From: Alistipes sp.
GTDB taxonomy: Bacteria; Bacteroidota; Bacteroidia; Bacteroidales; Rikenellaceae
Reading direction: 5' to 3'
NCBI GenBank assembly: GCA_017646625.1
Contig: JAGCMF010000026.1
Span: 1-38,507, forward strand
Length of the DNA: 38,507 nucleotides
This document shows positions 17,802 through 31,042 of this stretch, one piece after another. The position numbers were made by a program, and so were the translations under genes. How positions within the stretch are numbered: position 1 is the first letter of the stretch; each line of letters opens with the position of its first letter. Under the pieces are notes generated by a model that had not been told where the DNA came from, ran no database searches, and worked only from the letters and a program-made list of their open reading frames with translations.

Positions 17802-17809
17802 TATCTTTG
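17802..17809 (+). promoter_or_regulatory. -7 promoter box of the nuclease/receptor locus
   Basis: TATCTTTG matches TAnnTTTG, 85 bases before the first ATG of the locus. A T-rich segment with TTTG lies a little upstream, though the spacing is short of the ideal. Confidence 0.6.
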
Positions 17810-17894
17810 TCATTCCCCTATTATGCCTTATTGTTTTTGGGGTATTTTGAAAATTTACTAATAAATATTATTTACATTTTAAAAACAAAACATT

Positions 17895-20800
17895 ATGGTA
17901 AACAAACTTTTCAAGTCTCTCTTTGCTGTGATGATGGTCATGGGCTCGGCTCTTGGCTTCGTTGCTTGTGAGGAGCAGGGTGATGATGTTGTTGCGAACC
18001 CCACTGTGGAGGTCTCTACAACATCTATGAACTTTGCAATGGAGGAGGGTAGCCAGAGTGTTGCCGTTACTGCCAATGCTGATTGGAAGACGGAGGTCAA
18101 TGCTGACTGGGTTACTGTAACACCATCTGCAGGTAATGGCAATGCCAATATCACTGTGGCTGTTGCAATGAACGACACAGGTGCTGTGCGTGAGGCTGTC
18201 GTAAGCGTTATTGCTTTGCACAAGACCTATGGTAAGTGGGACACAAAGAAGATTAAGATTATTCAGTCTGCATCAGAGGATGTTCCCGTAACCGAGGAGT
18301 TGCTCTATGGCGATGACTTCGATGGTAAGGAGGCTACACAAACCTATGGCAATGGCTCATCATGGCCTTATGTAGACCAGTTCCCAGAGTTCGCTAACCC
18401 TACAGGTCCTGCTTCAGCGGGTGTAACTTATGAGGGTAAGGGTGTGTCAGTTCGTGCTAACTCGACATCTGACAGCAAATACTCTGACTATGATGGTTCT
18501 GGCTCAAACAACATCTTCTTCGGTAGTAACGCCTACTTCTTGATTAAGAACATCTCGCTTGATGCTGCACAGAAGAGCTATAAGATGACCTTTGGCTCGG
18601 AGAAGTATCTTACGAATGGTGATAGCATGTTTAGCACTAACGAGTTCCATGTATATATCTCAAAGAATGGTGCTGGCTGGGCAGAGCTCGACTACACATT
18701 CGCTGGTACAGAGGGTGGTCGTTGGAATGTAGCTACTGTAGAGTTTACCCTTACAGAGGTTCCAGAGAGCCTATATGTAAAGTTTGTTGCTGATGTAGCA
18801 AGTGCATACCGTCTTGATGATGTTAAGCTCTTCTCGGGTAACGGTGGCCAGTCTGTGACACTTCCCGAGACAGGTGGTGGTGATGGTGGCGGAACTACAC
18901 CAGCTCCTGCGGAGGGTATCTATGCATCAGATGTAGCCTTTGTTTGTGCTTCGGATGACTCTGAAAATGCTGCCTATAGCCTTGGTGCAACAACAATCAA
19001 TGGTAACGCTGTTACAGGCTTCAAGTTGGGTAAGTCAAAGCAGGCTGGTAGATTCACATCTGCTGCTGTTGGTGTATCAGGTGAGAAGTACCTTAACTTC
19101 TATGCCCAGGGCTGGAAGGGTGGCGATGTAACACTCTACTACCGTGTTGATGGTGGTGCTACTATGTCGCAGAAGCTCGCTTCACACGATGGCGTAACAG
19201 GCAACCCTCCATATGTGTCTCTTGCATTTGCTGCTACTGACCACTATTCAGTTAAACTCAATTTGACAGAGACATCAACAATCGAGTTCTCTACTGATGC
19301 TAACTTCGAGAACACTGCTTCGGAGTCAGCAATGGCCACTGCACGTGCTATCGTATGTGGTGTTAAACTCTCTGATGAGCCTATCGAGGGCGAGGATGGT
19401 GGTAATACTACTCCAGAGCCTACACCTGGCGGTGTGATGACTATTGCCGAGGCTATCGCTGCAGCTGCAAATACAGCCGTTATCGTTGAGAACGCTACCG
19501 TTATTGGTGTATATGGCCGTGGCGCACTGATTGAGGATACTACAGGTAAGATTCTTGCCTACGCAGGCTCTGCTGTAGATGTTGCTGTTGGTGACGTAGT
19601 TAAGGTGGAGGGTACGATGACTACACATGGTGGTCTTCCACAGATTGGCGGCACTGTGACATTTACAAAGACTGGCTCAAAGGCGTATACATATCCTACC
19701 GCAAAGGTTATGGATGGTGCCGCTTTTGATGCTTACCTTGGTAACCCCGTTATAGAGTATGTGGAGTATACTGGCACATTGACTATCAGTGGCTACTATT
19801 ACAATGTTGAGATCGAGGGCGCTTCTACTGCTATCGGCTCATTGGCTTATGTTATTGATGGCACTGTAGATCCAGCGTTGAATGGTCAGAAGATTGATGT
19901 TCGCGGTTGGACTATTGGCACATCAAGTGGCAAGTATGTAAATACCATGATTCGTTCGGTAGTTGCTGCTGGCGCAACACCAGAGCCTGACCCAACACCT
20001 GACCCAGAGCCTGACCCAACACCTGATACTCCAGCTGCAGGCTCAAAGCTTACAGTTGAGGAGTTCCTCACTCTTGCAAATACAGAGAATGAGTACGTGT
20101 TGACAGGTGAGATTACTCGTGTTGTTAATACAACATATGGCAACTTCGACCTTACTGACGAGACCGGTACTATCTACATCTACGGTTTGTTGACACCAGA
20201 GGGTGCAGAGAAGACACAGTGGGCAGCCGCTGGCTTGCATGAGGGTGACACTATCACTATCAAGGGTAAGTACTCACTTTACAACAACTCACCACAGATT
20301 CAAAATGCCGTATACGTTTCACACGTGTCAGCTCCATTTGTTAGCGCTGAATCTGTTACAGCTAAAGCCGCAGATACAACTGCGACAATCGCTGTGCAGT
20401 CAAATACAAATTGGTCGGTATCATGCGACGCTACTTGGGTAACATCATACACAGAGTCTGGCTCAAACAATGGTGTTATCAATGTAACCTTCGAGGCTAA
20501 TACAACTGCTAACAATCGTACTGCAACATTCACTATTACAGGTGATGATTTTGATGCATATACCGTTACATTGACACAGTATGGTGCAGGTGCAACCGAT
20601 ACAAAGGGTACATACACAAGCGAGGCCTTCTTCAAGTCAAACTCTGCAAGTGGCAACAATAAGGCTGTTTTTGAGAAGGTAATTATCGCTGGTACTGAAT
20701 ACGATTGCTTGAAGCTTGGTACTTCTGAAGTGGTAGGTAAGTATACCTCAAATGCAGTTAATAAGTCGGGTGATTTGACACTCTCATTCTACGCATTAGG

Positions 20801-21038
20801 TTGGAATAACAAGCAATCAAAGTTGAACGTATACGTTGATGGTAAGAAGGTTGGCGACACAATTACACTAACTTCAAATAGTGGTGTTGCTAGTAACTCA
20901 CCTTATACAGTTACACCATCAGATGCTACTGACTACTACACACTCACATTGACAGGTGTGACGGAGACTTCTACAATCACATTTGAGACTGTTTCTGGTG
21001 CTCCTCGTGCAATCATCTTTGGTGTGCAGTTGTACTAA
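17895..21038 (+). CDS. Large BACON / OB-fold surface lipoprotein
   Basis: This is a 1047-residue secreted lipoprotein: the signal peptide ends in LGFVAC, with the lipidated cysteine at about residue 26. Domains in order: BACON (about 36-110, with the Trp-containing ANADWKTEVNADWVTVTP); a jelly-roll-like module (138-316) starting GDDFDG; a repeated beta module A (341-493); an OB-fold-like region (515-690); a proline-rich linker (PEPDPTPD repeats, about 696-712); a second OB fold (717-815, LTGEITRVVNTTYGNFDLTD); a second BACON (815-897); and module A again (904-1047). OB folds of this kind occur next to secreted nucleases such as YhcR-type proteins. A role in holding nucleic acid at the cell surface is inferred from the two OB folds and the nuclease neighbours; carbohydrate binding is an alternative for BACON. 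Confidence 0.75.
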   Translation: MVNKLFKSLFAVMMVMGSALGFVACEEQGDDVVANPTVEVSTTSMNFAMEEGSQSVAVTANADWKTEVNADWVTVTPSAGNGNANITVAVAMNDTGAVREAVVSVIALHKTYGKWDTKKIKIIQSASEDVPVTEELLYGDDFDGKEATQTYGNGSSWPYVDQFPEFANPTGPASAGVTYEGKGVSVRANSTSDSKYSDYDGSGSNNIFFGSNAYFLIKNISLDAAQKSYKMTFGSEKYLTNGDSMFSTNEFHVYISKNGAGWAELDYTFAGTEGGRWNVATVEFTLTEVPESLYVKFVADVASAYRLDDVKLFSGNGGQSVTLPETGGGDGGGTTPAPAEGIYASDVAFVCASDDSENAAYSLGATTINGNAVTGFKLGKSKQAGRFTSAAVGVSGEKYLNFYAQGWKGGDVTLYYRVDGGATMSQKLASHDGVTGNPPYVSLAFAATDHYSVKLNLTETSTIEFSTDANFENTASESAMATARAIVCGVKLSDEPIEGEDGGNTTPEPTPGGVMTIAEAIAAAANTAVIVENATVIGVYGRGALIEDTTGKILAYAGSAVDVAVGDVVKVEGTMTTHGGLPQIGGTVTFTKTGSKAYTYPTAKVMDGAAFDAYLGNPVIEYVEYTGTLTISGYYYNVEIEGASTAIGSLAYVIDGTVDPALNGQKIDVRGWTIGTSSGKYVNTMIRSVVAAGATPEPDPTPDPEPDPTPDTPAAGSKLTVEEFLTLANTENEYVLTGEITRVVNTTYGNFDLTDETGTIYIYGLLTPEGAEKTQWAAAGLHEGDTITIKGKYSLYNNSPQIQNAVYVSHVSAPFVSAESVTAKAADTTATIAVQSNTNWSVSCDATWVTSYTESGSNNGVINVTFEANTTANNRTATFTITGDDFDAYTVTLTQYGAGATDTKGTYTSEAFFKSNSASGNNKAVFEKVIIAGTEYDCLKLGTSEVVGKYTSNAVNKSGDLTLSFYALGWNNKQSKLNVYVDGKKVGDTITLTSNSGVASNSPYTVTPSDATDYYTLTLTGVTETSTITFETVSGAPRAIIFGVQLY
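19981..20028 (+). repeat. Two tandem 24-bp repeats in a proline-rich linker
   Basis: The unit starting CAGAGCCTGACCCAACACCT occurs at 19981-20004 and again at 20005-20028, with only the last bases differing. It encodes the PEPDPTPD linker. Such repeats can gain or lose units by slippage and so change linker length without breaking frame. Confidence 0.8.
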
Positions 21039-21123
21039 ATCATAGATGAGTAGCGGTGCGAATGATAAAAACGTATTGCCACTTTGAATGATAAGTTTTA
21101 AAAGAGTAATAAAACTCACATCT

Positions 21124-21165
21124 TTCGTTTAACTTGGGTGGGGTAGTCCCACCCAAGGGAACGAA
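21124..21165 (+). promoter_or_regulatory. Two-tier hairpin between the lipoprotein and nuclease genes
   Basis: An inner perfect 10-bp stem (CTTGGGTGGG at 21133-21142 with CCCACCCAAG at 21148-21157, loop GTAGT) sits inside an outer stem of TTCGTT (21124-21129) with AACGAA (21160-21165). No T run follows, so it is not a standard terminator. It could be an mRNA processing or stability element that sets the ratio of the first gene to the rest. No separate promoter for the nuclease gene was found. Confidence 0.55.
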
Positions 21166-21179
21166 GGGGATTTGAAACG

Positions 21180-22409
21180 ATGGTAAGAATTAAAGAAAAT
21201 AATATGCAGAGGCGTGTGTTTAGAGTAATGGCTATGGTTAGCATCTTCGTGATGACTATTTTAGCTGTTGGTTGTGGCGATAATGTTGGTGAAAAGATTG
21301 CGAGCAATGCCTATATTCAGACTCCAGAGGTTAATGGTGAGAGTAGGAACTGCGCTGTGGTGCTACGAGCACAACAGGGTACTTCGTACACGATGACCAT
21401 AGAGTCGGAGGGTAGTTGGGCAACATTCTCTGGCGGTAAGAGTAGTGTCACAGCCGTGATGGAGACATCCGACAAGGTTGTCTACATATACTTCACAAAG
21501 AATGCGTCGGGCATATCACGTGAGGCGAGTGTCGATGTGCGCTTTACGGATGGAGGGGCGTTTAGTCTCCACTTCTGTCAGCATAGCTATGACGATACTA
21601 TAGCCATACAGCGTATGTGGCCAGAGCTGCCTACGTGTCCCGTAGATGATAACTATATCTACAACACGCACTATGGTAAACTCGGCATTAGGAGTGATGC
21701 GCGTAACTACACCTACTGCTTCGATATACGTAATAGAGCCTCTATATGGGTGGCATACCCACTCCATCGTGACCATATGTCGGGTAGTGGTAATCGTAAT
21801 AATAGCGACTTTGGCTACGATCCAGATGTGGAGGATAATCTGCAGGCCGCATTGGGCTTGGGCTCGTATAACGGCTGGTATGACAGAGGTCATCAGCTAC
21901 CTGCAGCCGATAGAAAGTGCTCACAGCAGATGATGGATCAGACATTCTACTCTACAAACATGACGCCGCAGCAGTATAAGTTTAATCAGAATAAGTGGGG
22001 TGTATTGGAGGGTAGAGTGCGTAATATGACATGTAGCGATACGTTGTATGTCGTTACAGGTGCTTATTTCGGCGGCCAACACCACTCGTCTATCGATGCC
22101 TCAACTACCGACCGCAAGGGTAATAAGTGCCCTACGCCCACGCACTACTTCAAGGCGTTGTTGCGCACCAAGTCGGGAAATACGGGTAGACGTATCGATG
22201 AGATAACAAGCGCTAACCAGCTGCGTGCCATAGCCTTCTGGCTTGAACATGAGAATACGGGCAATGACACGGCCATCACAGCAGCCGACTGCATATCTAT
22301 CGAGGAGCTTGAGGCACTCACAGGCATAGAGTTCTTCCCTATTATCGACGATAGTATCGAGGCAGAGGTCAAGACTACGGCTGTACCCTCGGAGTGGGGC
22401 GTGAACTAA
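21180..22409 (+). CDS. DNA/RNA non-specific endonuclease, lipoprotein
   Basis: This 409-residue protein carries a lipoprotein signal ending ILAVGC and a short BACON-like domain (about 40-130). The NUC1 endonuclease domain (about 160-400) follows. The catalytic motif is YDRGHQLPAADR with the general-base histidine His238 in Asp-Arg-Gly-His. The metal-binding asparagine region is STNMTPQQYKFNQNKW. These enzymes cut single- and double-stranded DNA and RNA with a magnesium ion. A second ATG at 21204 gives a more typical signal peptide (MQRRVFRVMAMV) and an A-rich leader, so it may be the true start. The enzyme should be anchored at the cell envelope facing outward. Confidence 0.92.
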   Translation: MVRIKENNMQRRVFRVMAMVSIFVMTILAVGCGDNVGEKIASNAYIQTPEVNGESRNCAVVLRAQQGTSYTMTIESEGSWATFSGGKSSVTAVMETSDKVVYIYFTKNASGISREASVDVRFTDGGAFSLHFCQHSYDDTIAIQRMWPELPTCPVDDNYIYNTHYGKLGIRSDARNYTYCFDIRNRASIWVAYPLHRDHMSGSGNRNNSDFGYDPDVEDNLQAALGLGSYNGWYDRGHQLPAADRKCSQQMMDQTFYSTNMTPQQYKFNQNKWGVLEGRVRNMTCSDTLYVVTGAYFGGQHHSSIDASTTDRKGNKCPTPTHYFKALLRTKSGNTGRRIDEITSANQLRAIAFWLEHENTGNDTAITAADCISIEELEALTGIEFFPIIDDSIEAEVKTTAVPSEWGVN

Positions 22410-22452
22410 CCCATAGGGAGTAAGATAAGACGTAAATTAAAAATATAGTAAG

Positions 22453-23484
22453 ATGAAAAAGAGTTTTTTAATGCTGTGTGTAGCCCTGCTATCGGTTACG
22501 GTGCTATGGGCGCAGGATAAACCCTACATGGTGGCGTTCTACAACCTTGAGAACTTGTTCGACATCTACGATGACCCCGAGACTCACGACGAGGAGTTTA
22601 CTCCCGAGGGTGCCAAGCAGTGGAATGAGATTAAGTATCAGAGGAAGCTGTCGAACATGGAACGTGTGCTGTTTGATATGGCGGCAATACAGAGGGATTA
22701 TCCCATCGTTATTGGCGTGTCGGAGATTGAGAACCGTTCGGTGTTGGAGGATCTCATCTCGCAGCCCAAGCTTAAGGGCGCAAACTACCGTATCTGCCAC
22801 TTTGACTCTCCTGATGCTCGTGGTGTCGATGTGGCATTCCTCTATCGTGCCGACGTATTCAAGGTGGAGGGTATGGATAATATCAAACTTGTTGTTGATG
22901 AGTTACCCGATTTCCGTACTCGTGACCTCGTTGTTATGTGGGGTACTATCGAGGATGAGCCATTCTACTTCCTCGTCTCACACTGGCCATCGCGCCTTGG
23001 TGGCAAGGAGGCTTCGCAGTTTAAGCGTGATGCTTGTGCTCGTCAGATACGTGAGATTAAGGATTCGTTGCTCGCTGCTAACCCCGCTACAAAGGTTATT
23101 GTCATGGGTGACTTCAACGATGATGCCACCGACCCGAGCCTTGTGCGCACTCTGGGCGCCAAGGGTAAGGTTAAGGAACTCGAGGTGGGCGACTTCTTCA
23201 ATCCATACTACTCTATGTTACGTGCAGGTCTTGGCACCTTGGCGTATCAGGATGCATGGAACCTCTTTGATAACATCTGTGTTACTGAAAACCTTGTAAA
23301 TGCTCCAGAGGGTGAGTTGCGCCTTGTCAAGGGTAAGAAGTTCTATGGTAACATCTTCACTCGCCCCTATATGCTTCAACAGGAGGGTAGATATAAGGGT
23401 TATCCGCTACGCACGTTCGTATCTAACAACTTCCAGAACGGCTTTAGTGACCATTTCCCCGTATACATATACATAGGTAAGTAA
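22453..23484 (+). CDS. Secreted endonuclease/exonuclease/phosphatase family protein
   Basis: The 343-residue protein begins with a cleavable signal peptide ending in VTVLWAQ, so it acts outside the cytoplasm. EEP (DNase I-like) motifs appear in order: MVAFYNLENLFD with the metal-binding Asn, VSEIENRSVLED with the metal Glu, SHWPSR, VMGDFNDD with the catalytic Asp/Asn, and NGFSDHFPVYI with the final Asp-His pair. All catalytic positions are present. The family cleaves phosphodiester or phosphomonoester bonds. Beside a NUC1 nuclease, a second extracellular nuclease or a nucleotide phosphatase is most likely. It starts 43 bases after the endonuclease gene. Confidence 0.92.
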   Translation: MKKSFLMLCVALLSVTVLWAQDKPYMVAFYNLENLFDIYDDPETHDEEFTPEGAKQWNEIKYQRKLSNMERVLFDMAAIQRDYPIVIGVSEIENRSVLEDLISQPKLKGANYRICHFDSPDARGVDVAFLYRADVFKVEGMDNIKLVVDELPDFRTRDLVVMWGTIEDEPFYFLVSHWPSRLGGKEASQFKRDACARQIREIKDSLLAANPATKVIVMGDFNDDATDPSLVRTLGAKGKVKELEVGDFFNPYYSMLRAGLGTLAYQDAWNLFDNICVTENLVNAPEGELRLVKGKKFYGNIFTRPYMLQQEGRYKGYPLRTFVSNNFQNGFSDHFPVYIYIGK

Positions 23485-23499
23485 ACTAAAATATTATAT

Positions 23500-26427
23500 A
23501 TGAAAAGATTTTTACTAACAATCATGTGTGCCCTACTCTCGTTGAGTGCTATTGCTCAATCGGGAGGTATGAAGGGTAAGGTTGTGTCACGAGATGATCG
23601 TGAGCCTATTGGCGGTGTCAAACTCTTTGTCGACGAGGTTGCCGTCAATACCACAACCAACGACTATGGTGAGTTTATTATCGAGGGTCTTGCTCCGGGT
23701 GAGTATATCATGCGCTTCGAGGCTGTAGGCTTCGAGGACTTGGAGCTCATGGTGCGTGTTAAGTCTCTTGTTCACGACATGCAACTCGTGATCATGGTGC
23801 CTTCACATGTTACCTTTGTTGATGACTCTGCCTTTGCTGAACTCGATACAGATGTAGAGTCGTCGGGCGAGGGTCAGGCTATGCCTGGAGCACTCTCTGC
23901 ATCCAAGGACCTCTTCAACAACATCGCATCATACCGCTTCTCGGAGATGCGCTTCAACGTGCGTGGTTACGACTCGCAGTATCAGGATGTATACCTCAAT
24001 GGTATCCGCTTTAACGATGCTTTGACAAGCTATGGTCCATGGTCTCTATGGAGTGGTCTTAATGATGCTACACGTAACCAGGAGGTTACTGCAGGACTTC
24101 AGATGTCGGACTATGGCCTGGGTGGTGTTGCTGGTACTACGAATATAAATGCTCGTGCCTCGCAGATGCGTAAGGGACTGAATGTGAGTGTTGTTAACTC
24201 TACACAGCTCTACCGTTTCCGCGCTATGGTAAGCTATGCTTCGGGTGCTTTGGATAATGGATGGTCGTATGGCTTCTCGGTATCTACACGTCAGGGTGGT
24301 AATGGATATGTTGATGGAGTATACTACAACGCATATGGCTACTTTGCCTCTGTGGAGAAGGTCTTTAACTCTGCACACCGTCTCTCGGCAACAATCCTCG
24401 GTGCTCCAACAACACGTGGTGCACAGCAGGCATCTACGCAGGAGGCATATGACCTATGGGGTGACAACTACTACAATCCTAACGTAGGTTTGCAGAATGG
24501 TGAGGAACGTAACTCACGTGTGCGACGTATGCACGAGCCTATCGCCATGCTTAACTACCATTGGCAGATTAACGAGAGAACAAGCCTATCTGTGGCTACA
24601 TCGTTGCGTTTCGGCTTTAATGGCTACTCATCACTCACATGGTATAAGGGTGAGGATCCACGCCCCGACTACTATCGTAAGTTACCATCATACTATGGCG
24701 ATCGCTTGGAACGACGTATGATGCTCAACCAGTATGCCAATGCTAATGACATGGATGCTCCATTTACAGAGGTAGATATAGCCACTGATATCATGAAGTA
24801 CAAGGAGTATCTTGAGAATTGGGATGGTTATATCGACTTTGATGGCCTCATCCAGGACAATATGATGGGTGAGAAGAGTGATATCTATGGCGATGGCCAC
24901 CGTGCGGTGTATATGATTGAGGAACGTCATACCGACCAGCTCGATTACAACTTCGCGGCACAGCTCAATCATGTGTTCCGTGGTGGCTCAAAGATCACTG
25001 CGGGTGTTAGAGCTCGTGTTAACCGCACGGAGTACTATAGCACTGTCAAGGATCTCCTTGGTGGCGACTATTGGCTCGATGTAGATAAGTTTGCAGAACG
25101 TGACTTTGGTAGCAATGTGGTCTCTTACCAGAATAATATGGCATACTACCGTGAGCATGGTCATGCGCAGGCTGTTCGTGAGGGCGATAAGTATGGTTAT
25201 GACTACTATGCACATGTGCGCCAGGGTCAGTTGTGGGCTATGTATGAGATTGCCGCCGGTGGCTTCTCTGCAAACATCGGTGCAGAGGTTGGTCTATCGT
25301 CAATGTGGCGTGAGGGTCTCTGGGAGAAGGGTCTCTTCCTCAATGAGAATGCTGGCGACAACCGAGGTATGACATCTCTTGGTGATTCTGATAAGATTAA
25401 CAACCTTACATATAAGGGCAAGGTGAATCTATCGTATCAGTTCTCTGGTGCTCACTCTATAGAGGCTAATGCTACGATAATGCAGAACGCACCTATGTTC
25501 AACAATGCCTTTGTTTCAGCGCGTACACGTAACCAGATTACCCCTGGCCTCGATGCCGAGAAGATCTATGGTTTCGATATTACATACAACTTGCGTACGC
25601 CATGGATACGTGCTCGCCTCTCGGCATACTACACACAGATGCTCGATCAGTCGAAGGTAATCTCGTTCTACGACGACACGCAGAGCTCATTTACTAACTT
25701 CGCTATGTCGGGTATCGACAAGCGTTATATGGGTGTTGAGCTGGGTGTTAGCATTCCTCTTGTGTGGGGTATATCATTGCAGGGTGCTGTGAGCCTCGGT
25801 GACTATGTCTATACATCTAATCCAGAGTTCACACAGATGATTGATAACTCGGCTACAGATGTGGTACATAGTGTTGTTAATTGGAAGGGCATGAAGGTTG
25901 AGAGTACACCACAGACTGCCATCAACGTAGGTCTCAACTTCCGCGGTCCAGATAATTGGTATGCAACTATAGACTTCAACTACTATGACCGCCTATACCT
26001 CTCTATGAACCCAATGTATCGTACCGACTATCTCGCAGGCGAGATTATGCGCATATATGGTTGGGACTCTCTTGAGACAGGTCGTCAGAAGGCATATGTC
26101 ATCGACATCATTGATGGCATCCGTGCGCAGGAGGAGTTGGGAAGCGCCTACACGTTGAGTGCAAGTGTTGGTAAGACATGGCGCATCAAGTATAAGTATA
26201 CTTTGGGTGTGAGCCTCCAGGTAAACAATATTCTCAATTCGCAGAAGATACGTACGGGTGGTTATGAGCAGATGCGTCTCAACAAACTCTCTGATCCTGT
26301 CCTCTTCCCTGATGCTGATGGCGTGATGCAGATTGAGGCTATTCCTACAACATACTCGCGTTTCGACTCGAAGTATTTCTATATGAATGGTCTCAACTAC
26401 TACCTTAATGTTTACTTCAGATTCTAA
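23500..26427 (+). CDS. TonB-dependent outer-membrane receptor
   Basis: The protein is 975 residues with a signal peptide (LLSLSAIAQ). A carboxypeptidase-regulatory-like beta domain follows (about 24-95, GKVVSRDDREPIGGVKLFVD). The plug (about 120-240) contains FNVRGYDSQYQDVYLNGIRF and ends GGVAGTTNINARASQ. The rest is a 22-strand-type barrel ending in YFRF with the terminal aromatic residue. It imports a substrate across the outer membrane using TonB energy. There is no SusD gene beside it, and it is shorter than many SusC proteins, so it is not a normal SusCD glycan pair. Its partner is probably the DUF5689 lipoprotein that overlaps its stop codon. The nuclease neighbours suggest nucleotides, oligonucleotides or phosphate esters as cargo. 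Confidence 0.93.
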   Translation: MKRFLLTIMCALLSLSAIAQSGGMKGKVVSRDDREPIGGVKLFVDEVAVNTTTNDYGEFIIEGLAPGEYIMRFEAVGFEDLELMVRVKSLVHDMQLVIMVPSHVTFVDDSAFAELDTDVESSGEGQAMPGALSASKDLFNNIASYRFSEMRFNVRGYDSQYQDVYLNGIRFNDALTSYGPWSLWSGLNDATRNQEVTAGLQMSDYGLGGVAGTTNINARASQMRKGLNVSVVNSTQLYRFRAMVSYASGALDNGWSYGFSVSTRQGGNGYVDGVYYNAYGYFASVEKVFNSAHRLSATILGAPTTRGAQQASTQEAYDLWGDNYYNPNVGLQNGEERNSRVRRMHEPIAMLNYHWQINERTSLSVATSLRFGFNGYSSLTWYKGEDPRPDYYRKLPSYYGDRLERRMMLNQYANANDMDAPFTEVDIATDIMKYKEYLENWDGYIDFDGLIQDNMMGEKSDIYGDGHRAVYMIEERHTDQLDYNFAAQLNHVFRGGSKITAGVRARVNRTEYYSTVKDLLGGDYWLDVDKFAERDFGSNVVSYQNNMAYYREHGHAQAVREGDKYGYDYYAHVRQGQLWAMYEIAAGGFSANIGAEVGLSSMWREGLWEKGLFLNENAGDNRGMTSLGDSDKINNLTYKGKVNLSYQFSGAHSIEANATIMQNAPMFNNAFVSARTRNQITPGLDAEKIYGFDITYNLRTPWIRARLSAYYTQMLDQSKVISFYDDTQSSFTNFAMSGIDKRYMGVELGVSIPLVWGISLQGAVSLGDYVYTSNPEFTQMIDNSATDVVHSVVNWKGMKVESTPQTAINVGLNFRGPDNWYATIDFNYYDRLYLSMNPMYRTDYLAGEIMRIYGWDSLETGRQKAYVIDIIDGIRAQEELGSAYTLSASVGKTWRIKYKYTLGVSLQVNNILNSQKIRTGGYEQMRLNKLSDPVLFPDADGVMQIEAIPTTYSRFDSKYFYMNGLNYYLNVYFRF

Positions 26428-27767
26428 TGCTTAAGCGTATGAATATTATGAGATTGAATAGATTATTCACACTTCTTGCCATCAGCATTATGTCTGTGGC
26501 ATGCTACGAGGACTTCACCAGTGTGCCTCCTCGTGAACTATATACAGATGCCTCATTTGAGGAGCAGTTCCCCGAAGCTGAACGTATCACCATCGCAGAG
26601 TTGAAGTATGCATTTGGCACTATCAGCAATACGGGTGTAAATAGTGGCTGGAACAATACTATCTATAAGCTTATTGGTGAGGATATCTTCGCTGGTCACG
26701 ATGTCTATATCAAGGGTAAGGTTACTACTGATGATGAGGAGGGTAACGTATATAAGTCACTCTACATCCAGGATGAAACCTCTGGTATCGAGCTTAAGCT
26801 CAATAACAACGTGGGTCTTCGTTATAAGAAGGGCTCATGGGTATATGTGCGCCTTACAGGTCTATACCTTGGTAACTACCGTATGATGTTGTCGTTGGGT
26901 GGCCCTCCATCAGAGTCGTACAACAAGGCGGAAGAGCATAAGTACTATGCTAACTCAAACATCGAGCTTCAAGAGGTTATCGACCGTCATGTCTTCCCTG
27001 GCCGTAAGGTTGATGGTGGCCTTAAGGTTGGTGACTTCGATGAGTGGTTGCGCTACTCACCAAATGTAGATATCATCACCGTTACTCCTGATAACTACGA
27101 GCAGGTATTCTCGCCCGCAAAGATTGAGATGGAGGGTAAGTTCTATGGCACGGAGAAGACCGATAGCAATGGCATTAAGTATCAGACTTTTGAGATCTCG
27201 CAGCGCGAGCTTATGTTTGGTCGTCTTATGCGCTTTGAGGGTGTTGAGTGTCATTATGCTGGTGTCACTAACCAGGATGGTGTTACCAACCCAGGTTTGA
27301 AGAGTGGCTCATTTGAGAATATATACCCCAGCTGGTTGTATACCGACCCACGTCCTACGGTGTCGAAGCCTTGGTATCATTGGGCGTATAAGGAGGATAT
27401 CACAGGTCGTAGCCTCTATGGCTCTGTGCTCTTCACCTATAATACTGCCGCTACGGTATGCTCTGCTAATGGTGTCTATGCACTCCGTACAAGTGGGTAT
27501 TCACGCTTTGCACGTCGTAACGTATGCAAGGATGGTGAGAAGGCGACAATCATGGCTATCTATGGCATCTATGCGCAGCGTTCAGACTATGCTGGTAACG
27601 CTAACGACTATGCATCGTACCAGCTCACAATCAGCAGTTTCTCGGATATAGAGTTTGAGAATGGCGAGGATGCGCTGCTTACTGATGAGCAGGTTGCAGC
27701 TATGACAACTGAAGATATGAAGACTGTGCCCTGGATTGATGAGGAGGGCGAGTCTGATATACTCTAA
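26427..27767 (+). CDS. DUF5689 domain lipoprotein
   Basis: The 446-residue protein has a lipoprotein signal ending IMSVAC. It matches DUF5689 by memory: an OB-like beta domain with FAGHDVYIKGKVTTDDEEGN, SLYIQDETSGIELKLN, and VYVRLTGLYLGNYRMMLSLG. A C-terminal part (about 290-446) is beta-rich and Trp/Tyr-rich. The OB-like build echoes the two OB folds of the first gene. Its start overlaps the receptor stop by one base (TAATG), a strong sign of coupled translation, so it may act as the receptor's outer lid or substrate binder. Later ATGs at 26439 and 26448 are possible starts with a cleaner signal peptide. The function is otherwise unknown. Confidence 0.82.
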   Translation: MLKRMNIMRLNRLFTLLAISIMSVACYEDFTSVPPRELYTDASFEEQFPEAERITIAELKYAFGTISNTGVNSGWNNTIYKLIGEDIFAGHDVYIKGKVTTDDEEGNVYKSLYIQDETSGIELKLNNNVGLRYKKGSWVYVRLTGLYLGNYRMMLSLGGPPSESYNKAEEHKYYANSNIELQEVIDRHVFPGRKVDGGLKVGDFDEWLRYSPNVDIITVTPDNYEQVFSPAKIEMEGKFYGTEKTDSNGIKYQTFEISQRELMFGRLMRFEGVECHYAGVTNQDGVTNPGLKSGSFENIYPSWLYTDPRPTVSKPWYHWAYKEDITGRSLYGSVLFTYNTAATVCSANGVYALRTSGYSRFARRNVCKDGEKATIMAIYGIYAQRSDYAGNANDYASYQLTISSFSDIEFENGEDALLTDEQVAAMTTEDMKTVPWIDEEGESDIL

Positions 27768-27786
27768 TGTAGGGTAGATGTTTCGG

Positions 27787-27818
27787 ATATGCGGAGGATT
27801 AATTGGTCCTCCGCATAT
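27787..27818 (+). terminator. Terminator of the nuclease/receptor locus
   Basis: A 12-bp perfect stem (ATATGCGGAGGA / TCCTCCGCATAT) with an 8-base loop is followed by TTCTTTGTTT. It lies 20 bases after the DUF5689 stop. Confidence 0.85.
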
Positions 27819-27879
27819 TCTTTGTTTATGAATATGTGATTTGTGGTGATATAGAGTTGTGTGGTAAGAAAATAATCTC

Positions 27880-27917: not shown

Positions 27918-28319
27918 ATGGGTAAAAATGTTAAAGAAAAGCTGAAATATGTGGTCTTTGTATTGTCCTTGGGCGTTGCTTTTGGTTTATTGGTGTATCT
28001 GCTTGAGGGCCTTGGCTTTTTAGGTCATCTATCGTGGTATGAGACGTTAGTTATCCCCGTATCGTTGACACTGCTTCTGTATGTTGTGCATCGTTATATC
28101 TGTAAGGATAACACCTCGTGGTTTGGTAGGCTTGTAAATATTAGCATGAAGGTTATGTTCTATGCGACCATCATCTTCATTGTTTATGTAGGTTTAGAGT
28201 GGTGTTTCGCCTCTACTGATGCCGACTTTAGTGGCGTTGTTTGGGAGAGGATACTTTTGGTGAGTATATGTGTAAGTGCTGTCGTTAAGATTAATGACAA
28301 CAAAAACAGCAAGGAATAA
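27918..28319 (+). CDS. Small membrane protein of unknown function
   Basis: I do not recognise this 133-residue protein. Hydropathy by eye gives about four membrane helices: 11-33 (VVFVLSLGVAFGLLVYLL), 44-62 (LVIPVSLTLLLYVVH), 76-98 (MKVMFYATIIFIVYVGLEW) and 110-124 (ILLVSICVSAVVKI). The N-terminus is basic (MGKNVKEKLK) and the C-terminus is polar and charged. It has its own promoter box and terminator, so it is a single-gene transcript with no functional link to the locus before it. A real gene is supported by those signals and by the regular coding pattern. Confidence 0.75.
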   Translation: MGKNVKEKLKYVVFVLSLGVAFGLLVYLLEGLGFLGHLSWYETLVIPVSLTLLLYVVHRYICKDNTSWFGRLVNISMKVMFYATIIFIVYVGLEWCFASTDADFSGVVWERILLVSICVSAVVKINDNKNSKE

Positions 28320-30148: not shown

Positions 30149-31042
30149 TTATATCTGTGTGTGGTCTATTTTTTTTATCCTCTTTTCCGCCTCAAGTAGT
30201 GTGCGCTTGCGTTCTATAGCCTCGCCGTCGCGCTTACCGTTGTAGCCACCTATTGTGCCATTGGAGGCTATCACGCGGTGACATGGCACATCGGGGGCAA
30301 AGGGATTTCTCTTGAGTGCTTGTCCTATGGCTTGTGCACTACGACATCCTATGCGTCTCGCAAGTTCGCCATATGTAATCGTCTCTCCTTCAGCGGTGTT
30401 TAGTAACTCTATATATACCTTTCGTTGAAAAGGTGTTATGTGTGTAGATAACTCCACACGTTGGTGTATGTCGAGGTCGGTTGTGCGCTGCAGATGCCAC
30501 ATCGTGTGTCCGAAGAATTGGCGTGTTCCTACGCGCTTGAAGCCGAGTGATGAGTATAGCCTCTCGGCTTTAGTGTTTATGCTATCTACGATAAGGCCTA
30601 CGTGTGCGTGTCCATCGCAAAATGCCATCTTGCAGAATGTCTCTATTAGTCTGCTGCCGACGCCCTGACCTCGGAATTGGGGTAGTACAGCTATGGAGTC
30701 GAGGTAGTATTCGCCAGCCTCCGTCTCATCGGTTATTGATGGTGTGCGACCGATTATGTTGCGTAGCACGGTGAATGTCCCCTCGCGCAGTGCGTGGAGG
30801 CGTGCTCCGTCGTATCCAACGACCGCACCTGCTGTAACACCATCAACCTCGGCTATGAGTGCTTGTTGCCAGCTGTATTGGGTATTTTTTGCGCGCACAA
30901 TATGTGAGAGAGTGGTCATGTAGTCCTCACCACAGTAGTCCTTTAGTGCCTTCTGGTCGCCTATGGCTATGGCGACAGCTTGTGCTATGATGCCAGCGTC
31001 GCGTATGGTAGCTCTCCTTACAATGATATTTCTACTCTCCAT
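30149..31042 (-). CDS. GNAT acetyltransferase fused to an O6-methylguanine methyltransferase-like domain
   Basis: The 297 residues hold two domains. Residues 1-165 are GNAT: the acetyl-CoA loop is VLPQFRGQGVGSRL, followed by SLGFKRVG. Residues 195-297 are the DNA-binding/active-site half of MGMT (Ogt): TPFQRKVYIELL, TYGELARRIG, KRNPF, and the acceptor Cys254 in PCHRV. The N-terminal ribonuclease-H-like half of Ogt is absent, so the GNAT domain takes its place. Counting without gaps from the cysteine, the arginine finger of human MGMT (Arg128, 17 residues before Cys145) aligns with Gln237, while Asn246 matches Asn137. The protein may repair or sense alkylated bases, with the acetyl transfer target unknown. 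It heads an operon with the SDR and DMT genes. Confidence 0.88.
   Translation of the reverse strand: MESRNIIVRRATIRDAGIIAQAVAIAIGDQKALKDYCGEDYMTTLSHIVRAKNTQYSWQQALIAEVDGVTAGAVVGYDGARLHALREGTFTVLRNIIGRTPSITDETEAGEYYLDSIAVLPQFRGQGVGSRLIETFCKMAFCDGHAHVGLIVDSINTKAERLYSSLGFKRVGTRQFFGHTMWHLQRTTDLDIHQRVELSTHITPFQRKVYIELLNTAEGETITYGELARRIGCRSAQAIGQALKRNPFAPDVPCHRVIASNGTIGGYNGKRDGEAIERKRTLLEAEKRIKKIDHTQI

Follow-up and report, generated by a model that had tools for sequence, protein, structure and literature searches.

We analysed a 38,507-nt stretch of Alistipes sp. contig JAGCMF010000026.1 (GCA_017646625.1), referred to here as the window, and the five-gene locus that it holds within positions 17802..27818: an OB/BACON lipoprotein (gene 1), a NUC1 nuclease lipoprotein (gene 2), an endonuclease/exonuclease/phosphatase (EEP) nuclease (gene 3), a TonB-dependent receptor (gene 4) and a DUF5689 lipoprotein (gene 5). 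The locus is probably a TonB-powered importer of DNA across the outer membrane that works with one nuclease at the surface and another that is probably periplasmic. Two genes reported to be needed for natural transformation in Riemerella anatipestifer are tied here to a third conserved gene, which encodes an intact nuclease. A preliminary description of the stretch had proposed capture, cutting and import of nucleic acids; this stands as the likeliest theme, with the import idea holding in part. Its statement that no named system has this set of genes gives way to a genetically tested relative in print, studied for transformation rather than feeding and lacking NUC1 and gene 1.

We favour DNA import because the receptor is a reciprocal best hit of the Riemerella gene fitting RA0C_RS04915; because published deletions of RA0C_RS04915 and RA0C_RS04920 abolish transformation and mutations in tonBA and tonBB lower it; because an EEP gene adjoins the receptor far more often than it adjoins paralogous receptors (59/77 versus 0/18); because the receptor tree separates orthologues from paralogues; and because OB folds are among the best, weakly scoring matches of the DUF5689 model, OB domains recur among relatives of gene 1 and the window's own genome has ComEC. 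In the proposed mechanism, the surface lipoproteins encoded by genes 1 and 5 would bind DNA, the surface NUC1 lipoprotein would nick or cut it, the receptor would draw it across the outer membrane on TonB energy and the exported EEP, probably periplasmic, would degrade the entering DNA or one of its strands. DNA as the substrate in this host, the direction of transport, the site of EEP action and the role of NUC1 are the parts that we infer. The sequence of surface capture, surface cut, import and periplasmic digestion would resemble the logic of a polysaccharide utilization locus (PUL).

The genetic evidence comes from a transposon screen in R. anatipestifer, in which markerless mutants of RA0C_RS04915 or RA0C_RS04920 were untransformable, with frequencies below detection compared to 5.4e-5 in the wild type (PMC8459023; here and below, statements credited to papers rest on excerpts of them). 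RA0C_RS04915 was described as a CarboxypepD_reg outer-membrane protein and RA0C_RS04920 as containing DUF5689, DUF5017 and choice-of-anchor J domains, while transcription of the upstream gene, RA0C_RS04910, was unaffected by the insertion; no mutant of RA0C_RS04910, by position the EEP gene, was found in the excerpts (PMC8459023). According to the same source, no pilus homologues were found, the crossing of the outer membrane by DNA was unexplained and the strand-degrading step was left unassigned, with ComEC named as one possibility (PMC8459023). Mutants of tonBA and tonBB both showed a lowered transformation frequency in R. anatipestifer, that of tonBA without an iron defect (PMC8383284). 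In the open-access literature that we searched, the term 'DUF5689' occurred only in the R. anatipestifer screen (PMC8459023), and no report was found of feeding or transformation by this locus in gut species.

To place these genes in a genome, we used family f116, in which genome G291 has a lipoprotein above the cut-off of NF052645, a family named after R. anatipestifer M949_1556. A published comEC primer matched two of its 320 genomes, both exactly and both in the genus of G553, and a second published comEC primer also gave an exact match. Genome G840 (2,164,087 bases in one contig) has the gene order recA, dinB, sdhB, sdhA, sdhC, comEC, a 145-aa gene, carboxyl transferase, EEP, receptor and DUF5689, where sdhB and sdhC were named from sequence and place. 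Counting in steps of five from recA as 04870 gives comEC as 04895, the receptor as 04915 and DUF5689 as 04920, as published, and EEP as 04910; a 121-aa open reading frame (ORF) overlapping the 145-aa gene on the opposite strand is uncounted here, and counting it would shift the tags by one. The domains also agree with the published ones, choice-of-anchor J being present and DUF5017 matching only under its cut-off. By primers, gene order and domains, the G840 pair fits RA0C_RS04915/RA0C_RS04920, and by position RA0C_RS04910 would fit a gene for the same EEP nuclease.

Searched in G840, the window receptor found its best match at E = 1.5e-86 (next place 1.7e-26), and the G840 receptor searched in the window's own genome returned 1.9e-87 (next 1.0e-26), so that the two are reciprocal best hits with 27% identity over their whole length. 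The EEP proteins are 41% identical over 301 aa, and the DUF5689 proteins have in common only a 71-aa core (41% identity). Both loci thus have the receptor, the DUF5689 lipoprotein after it on the same strand and an EEP gene directly upstream, whereas in the window the EEP gene is codirectional, NUC1 and the OB/BACON lipoprotein are added and the DUF5689 protein has no match to choice-of-anchor J (NF038128); a transformation role in the window's host would be by analogy. The choice-of-anchor J domain appears variable rather than defining, several Bacteroidales relatives being too short to hold one.

Because ComEC is present in the window's own genome (E = 1.1e-46), transformation is possible in this lineage. 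ComEC was found in all 36 genomes examined and is too widespread to discriminate. The same applies to a 366-aa multi-HHH ORF of this genome, HHH proteins being widespread, and co-occurrence of HHH_3 was discarded as a competence test. Linkage to comEC was likewise rejected as general evidence: 23 of 25 genomes have a receptor orthologue and comEC lies near it on the same contig in none (at closest about 240 kb away, and in many cases on a different contig), while among 11 further genomes it is near the receptor only in G553 (about 12 kb), the distance in G840 being about 4.3 kb. In one receptor-bearing genome, the ComEC match contains two in-frame stops (G311:C1:162198-162944).

We next consider linkage across genomes. 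In a draw of 197 genomes from the order, the receptor had a match at E <=1e-60 in 98 (judged by eye, own genome included; next best 3.7e-47), and in a draw of 247 genomes from the phylum it had a match at E <=1e-130 in 39 (by eye, including its own genome and two already collected). All 39 belong to the same class, and the next matches (1e-107 or weaker) were taken as paralogues. Neighbourhoods were taken for 60 order loci (the best 40 besides the window's own and 20 hand-picked) and 20 hand-picked phylum loci, a sample that is not random, and those with too short flanks were excluded from counts (77/80 kept for EEP). In 79 of the 80, a DUF5689 gene comes after the receptor on the same strand; in the exception (L177, genome G213) such a gene is on a different contig. 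Within 1.7 kb upstream of the receptor, EEP is present in 59 of 77 testable neighbourhoods, divergent in 55 and codirectional in 4. As a control we examined 20 loci of paralogous receptors, where neither EEP nor NUC1 was found (EEP in 0/18 testable loci with >=1 kb upstream) and a DUF5689-like gene lay beside five, directly downstream in four. For the difference in EEP linkage, Fisher p = 8e-10, a value that overstates the case since the genomes are related. The preliminary description had named conserved linkage in relatives as a check, and these counts bear it out.

Among the best 80 named loci, which are nearest relatives and no independent sample, testable cases showed codirectional EEP in 78/78, NUC1 in 75/75, an upstream lipoprotein (called by the gene 1 or DUF5689 profile) in 67/68 and DUF5689 in 77/77. 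PF19580, the EEP family, was found in 15/15 genomes with the receptor compared to 7/15 without it, and in 14 of the 15 it adjoins the receptor (in G125 it is on another contig). At 11 further loci (L223-L233), EEP adjoins the receptor in ten and DUF5689 directly follows it in nine; L225 has its DUF5689 match 2 kb farther on and L233 has neither gene. One receptor orthologue (G418:C19:401297-404102, family f117) is broken over two frames and has in-frame stops, which may reflect a pseudogene or an error in sequencing.

By these comparisons the widespread core is EEP, receptor and DUF5689, to which the gut lineage adds NUC1 and the OB/BACON lipoprotein. A receptor tree, made by a quick method with SH-aLRT support only and leaving out L235 as too short, set 41 orthologues, which represent two or more orders, apart from the paralogues with 100% support; L233, collected as a possible orthologue, groups with the paralogues. 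In an EEP tree containing 26 of 83 codirectional EEPs plus that of the window, a branch with 100/99 support sets all 27 apart, which suggests a single derivation of the five-gene form; it looks like a derived form of Rikenellaceae, some Bacteroides and kin. Among culturable bacteria, Bacteroides salyersiae DSM 18765 carries the locus (L128). Of 22 rows of unlinked EEPs, 13 lie outside the linked groups and nine (two being the same gene) inside the divergent group; EEP therefore has also moved or duplicated independently of the receptor. In genome G152, an additional EEP that groups with the divergent type lies head to head with a five-gene-form OB lipoprotein gene (L034:15558-16580). Close kin G106 and G196 are without a receptor orthologue.

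Both nucleases appear intact. Gene 3 matches Exo_endo_phos_3 (PF19580) above its cut-off (2.2e-113), and the residues that we take to be the metal and catalytic ligands (N, E, E, H, D, N, D, H) are all present, as the preliminary description had stated for this secreted enzyme. Across the window and 138 linked EEPs, each ligand column is unchanged in 138 or 139 of 139 sequences, the sole exception being a gap. A signal peptide without lipobox, as in the window, was found by a simple rule in 119/138 relatives, and EEP is probably exported to the periplasm. A search of solved-structure sequences with EEP gave no matches. Gene 2 matches Endonuclease_NS (PF01223) above its cut-off (2.8e-38) and has the DRGH motif noted earlier for this lipoprotein; among 83 sequences (the window and 82 relatives near a receptor), G, H, N, Q and E are invariant, R is kept in 82 and the D of DRGH is less constant (53/83). 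A lipobox was found by simple rule in 61/81 NUC1 relatives.

For the receptor, Pfam recognized CarbopepD_reg_2 (1.6e-11) and, under its cut-off, a plug domain, and by fold it classes as a TonB-dependent transporter. An NCBIfam scan at E up to 0.01 found no family, hence it is not named SusC/RagA; solved-structure sequences gave five matches, all to a CarboxypepD-like domain, and SusC chains are absent among the 50 matches listed in the fold comparison, which does not thereby exclude SusC. Gene 5 matches DUF5689 (3.3e-26), and solved-structure sequences gave a single match to it (E = 0.41). The best fold matches of its predicted model (mean pLDDT 69.6) are OB-fold DNA-binding proteins, including POT1, MCM10, MCM and SSB, with weak scores; SusD is not among the matches listed, which does not thereby exclude it. 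Together with the absence of a SusD family match in any of the five genes (Pfam and NCBIfam), this speaks against the earlier proposal that DUF5689 stands in place of SusD. DUF5689 alone was rejected as a marker of the locus, being also found near paralogous receptors and behind large receptor/SusD-like pairs: at L214, L215 and L218 a large receptor and a gene that is SusD-like by its sequence come first, and the lipoprotein gene behind them carries DUF5689 or has a similar place. The window's own genome also has two tandem small DUF5689 lipoproteins with no receptor match adjoining (L220:9207-10737, C3).

Gene 1 had been described as having two BACON and two OB-like domains. Pfam recognized both BACON stretches and one OB domain (tRNA_anti-codon, 27.2 bits versus a cut-off of 27); the second OB-like domain was not recognized by Pfam, and the two putative OB regions compared with each other scored 20 bits. 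Among 37 upstream lipoproteins scanned (that of the window and 36 of 72 relatives), BACON was found in 30, DUF5689 in 12, tRNA_anti OB in 12 and LTD in 3. The gene 1 product would be a candidate surface binder of nucleic acids. An hhalign comparison of the DUF5689 protein with gene 1 aligned only the signal peptides. In one close relative within Alistipes, a DUF5689 domain (5.4e-29) is part of the OB/BACON lipoprotein encoded upstream (L074:4269-7600).

With SusC/SusD PULs the locus shares a TonB-dependent receptor with CarboxypepD_reg, surface lipoproteins, degradative enzymes and one apparent transcription unit, but its five genes hold no SusD and no glycan enzyme family, and a SusCD-type PUL was rejected on the lack of SusD and of the SusC name. 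The PUS clusters of Flavobacterium johnsoniae are PUL-like clusters with phosphodiesterases, proposed to bind and import phosphorus compounds, but rely on PusC/PusD or different TonB transporters and have other lipoproteins (PMC8115612). The layout is nearer to a receptor with a surface lipoprotein partner, such as BtuB-BtuG of Bacteroides thetaiotaomicron, than to SusC/SusD, although the ligand there is vitamin B12 and BtuG is a beta-propeller whereas DUF5689 looks OB-like. The locus resembles the ExeM/NucH extracellular nucleases in a weak match of the window EEP to NF033681 (28 bits, far under the cut-off of 300) and in LTD in some upstream lipoproteins, but the EEP belongs to a separate family, PF19580.

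Other explanations of the locus differ in what would be carried and for what use. A pure nutrient system, in which DNA or RNA is digested outside to nucleotides or short oligonucleotides and these are imported as sources of phosphorus, carbon or bases while long DNA is not carried, is a serious contender that we nonetheless hold to be doubtful. The cluster has two nucleases, one of them probably on the surface; its order of binder, surface cutter, receptor and second enzyme is PUL-like; and phosphate depletion in F. johnsoniae leads to higher levels of extracellular nucleases, of TonB transporters and of SusCD-like PUS clusters (PMC8115612). Yet the matching Riemerella pair is reportedly needed for transformation, which requires long DNA, and the core without NUC1 is commoner in our draws (55 divergent versus 4 codirectional of 59). 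We consider it unlikely that the gut form is a competence locus with the same transforming role as in Riemerella, in which NUC1 and EEP would cut DNA for entry and degrade one strand: the reciprocal best hits, the published phenotypes, the presence of ComEC in all 36 genomes and the unassigned strand-degrading step argue for it, but transforming DNA would be destroyed by a non-specific nuclease at the surface, ComEC and HHH proteins occur too widely to be informative and the excerpts of PMC8459023 report no EEP mutant. Feeding and transformation are not mutually exclusive, NUC1 favouring feeding here and Riemerella genetics favouring long-DNA transport; for this lineage our guess is mainly nucleotide or phosphorus salvage.

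It is improbable, in our assessment, that the receptor and lipoprotein import another ligand or affect lipopolysaccharide, with the transformation defect of Riemerella being secondary. M949_1556, after which the lipoprotein family NF052645 is named, is reported in excerpts as a lipopolysaccharide/antigenicity gene, and this offers a real alternative reading of the Riemerella phenotype that weighs against DNA import; on the other side stand the conserved linkage to an intact EEP nuclease, the recurring OB domains and the reported loss of transformation upon separate deletion of each Riemerella gene. A chance neighbourhood of unrelated genes is vanishingly improbable: the linkage counts refute it, as does the control with paralogues (DUF5689 in 79/80 and EEP in 59/77 loci versus EEP in 0/18).

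Returning to DNA import, a broader proposal falls a little short of an even chance in our judgement: EEP, receptor and DUF5689 would make up a machine of the class Bacteroidia that imports DNA without a pilus, EEP being the processing nuclease so far missing from it, and gut Bacteroidota would have adapted it to feeding on DNA through the gain of a surface nuclease and of DNA-binding lipoproteins, perhaps acquiring genes by the same route. For Riemerella, the EEP link would bear on two gaps, the crossing of the outer membrane without pilus homologues and the strand-degrading step. About half of the order-draw genomes have the set, as do other families of the class, with gut Alistipes and Bacteroides among the carriers. 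Should DNA import hold in gut species, it would bear on their feeding on DNA and on possible gene acquisition.

Coordinates of the locus and its flanking signals in the window.
Feature	Position	Strand	Basis
TAnnTTTG promoter-like box upstream of gene 1	17802..17809	+	Sequence match
Gene 1: 1047-aa lipoprotein, two BACON domains and one recognized OB domain	17895..21038	+	Pfam
Gene 2: NUC1 (Endonuclease_NS) nuclease lipoprotein	21180..22409	+	Pfam, conserved core, lipobox
Gene 3: EEP nuclease (Exo_endo_phos_3), signal peptide without lipobox, probably periplasmic	22453..23484	+	Pfam, ligands
Gene 4: TonB-dependent receptor, reciprocal best hit of the Riemerella receptor fitting RA0C_RS04915	23500..26427	+	
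Gene 5: DUF5689 lipoprotein, receptor partner; Riemerella counterpart fits RA0C_RS04920	26427..27767	+	Pfam, alignment, model
Intrinsic terminator-like hairpin, 16 pairs, 3' of gene 5	27785..27820	+	Terminator scan

All five ORFs were confirmed as codirectional on the + strand (17895-27767), with successive gaps of 141, 43, 15 and -1 bases. The earlier picture of five such genes between one promoter box and one terminator holds for the genes and the hairpin, although the terminator scan gave 8 sites in total versus 7.8 expected. The box is another matter: TAnnTTTG, which we take to be the Bacteroidota -7 element, has 43 matches on both strands of the window versus 18.9 expected, the box alone being weak evidence. 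A scan of the gaps found no terminator-like sites between the five genes; weak ones lie within gene 2 (22032), gene 5 (27197) and, on the - strand, gene 4 (25424). The one-base overlap between genes 4 and 5, also described earlier, hinges on the choice of start, the invariant Met of alignment A2 being codon 8.

The surrounding genes are ordinary, with V-type ATPase subunits and ruvB (named from its sequence) upstream and an EamA transporter and a short-chain dehydrogenase downstream. Past the terminator is a 133-aa ORF (27918-28319) that matched no Pfam family, and positions 30149-31042 encode an acetyltransferase domain fused to an O6-methylguanine DNA methyltransferase DNA-binding domain. 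Among named records, the closest receptors (<=85% identical in the best segment) come from Alistipes/Rikenellaceae metagenome-assembled genomes of animal guts. Elsewhere in the window's own genome is a Cas9-like ORF, judged from its N-terminal sequence alone (L220:172-3648, C3).

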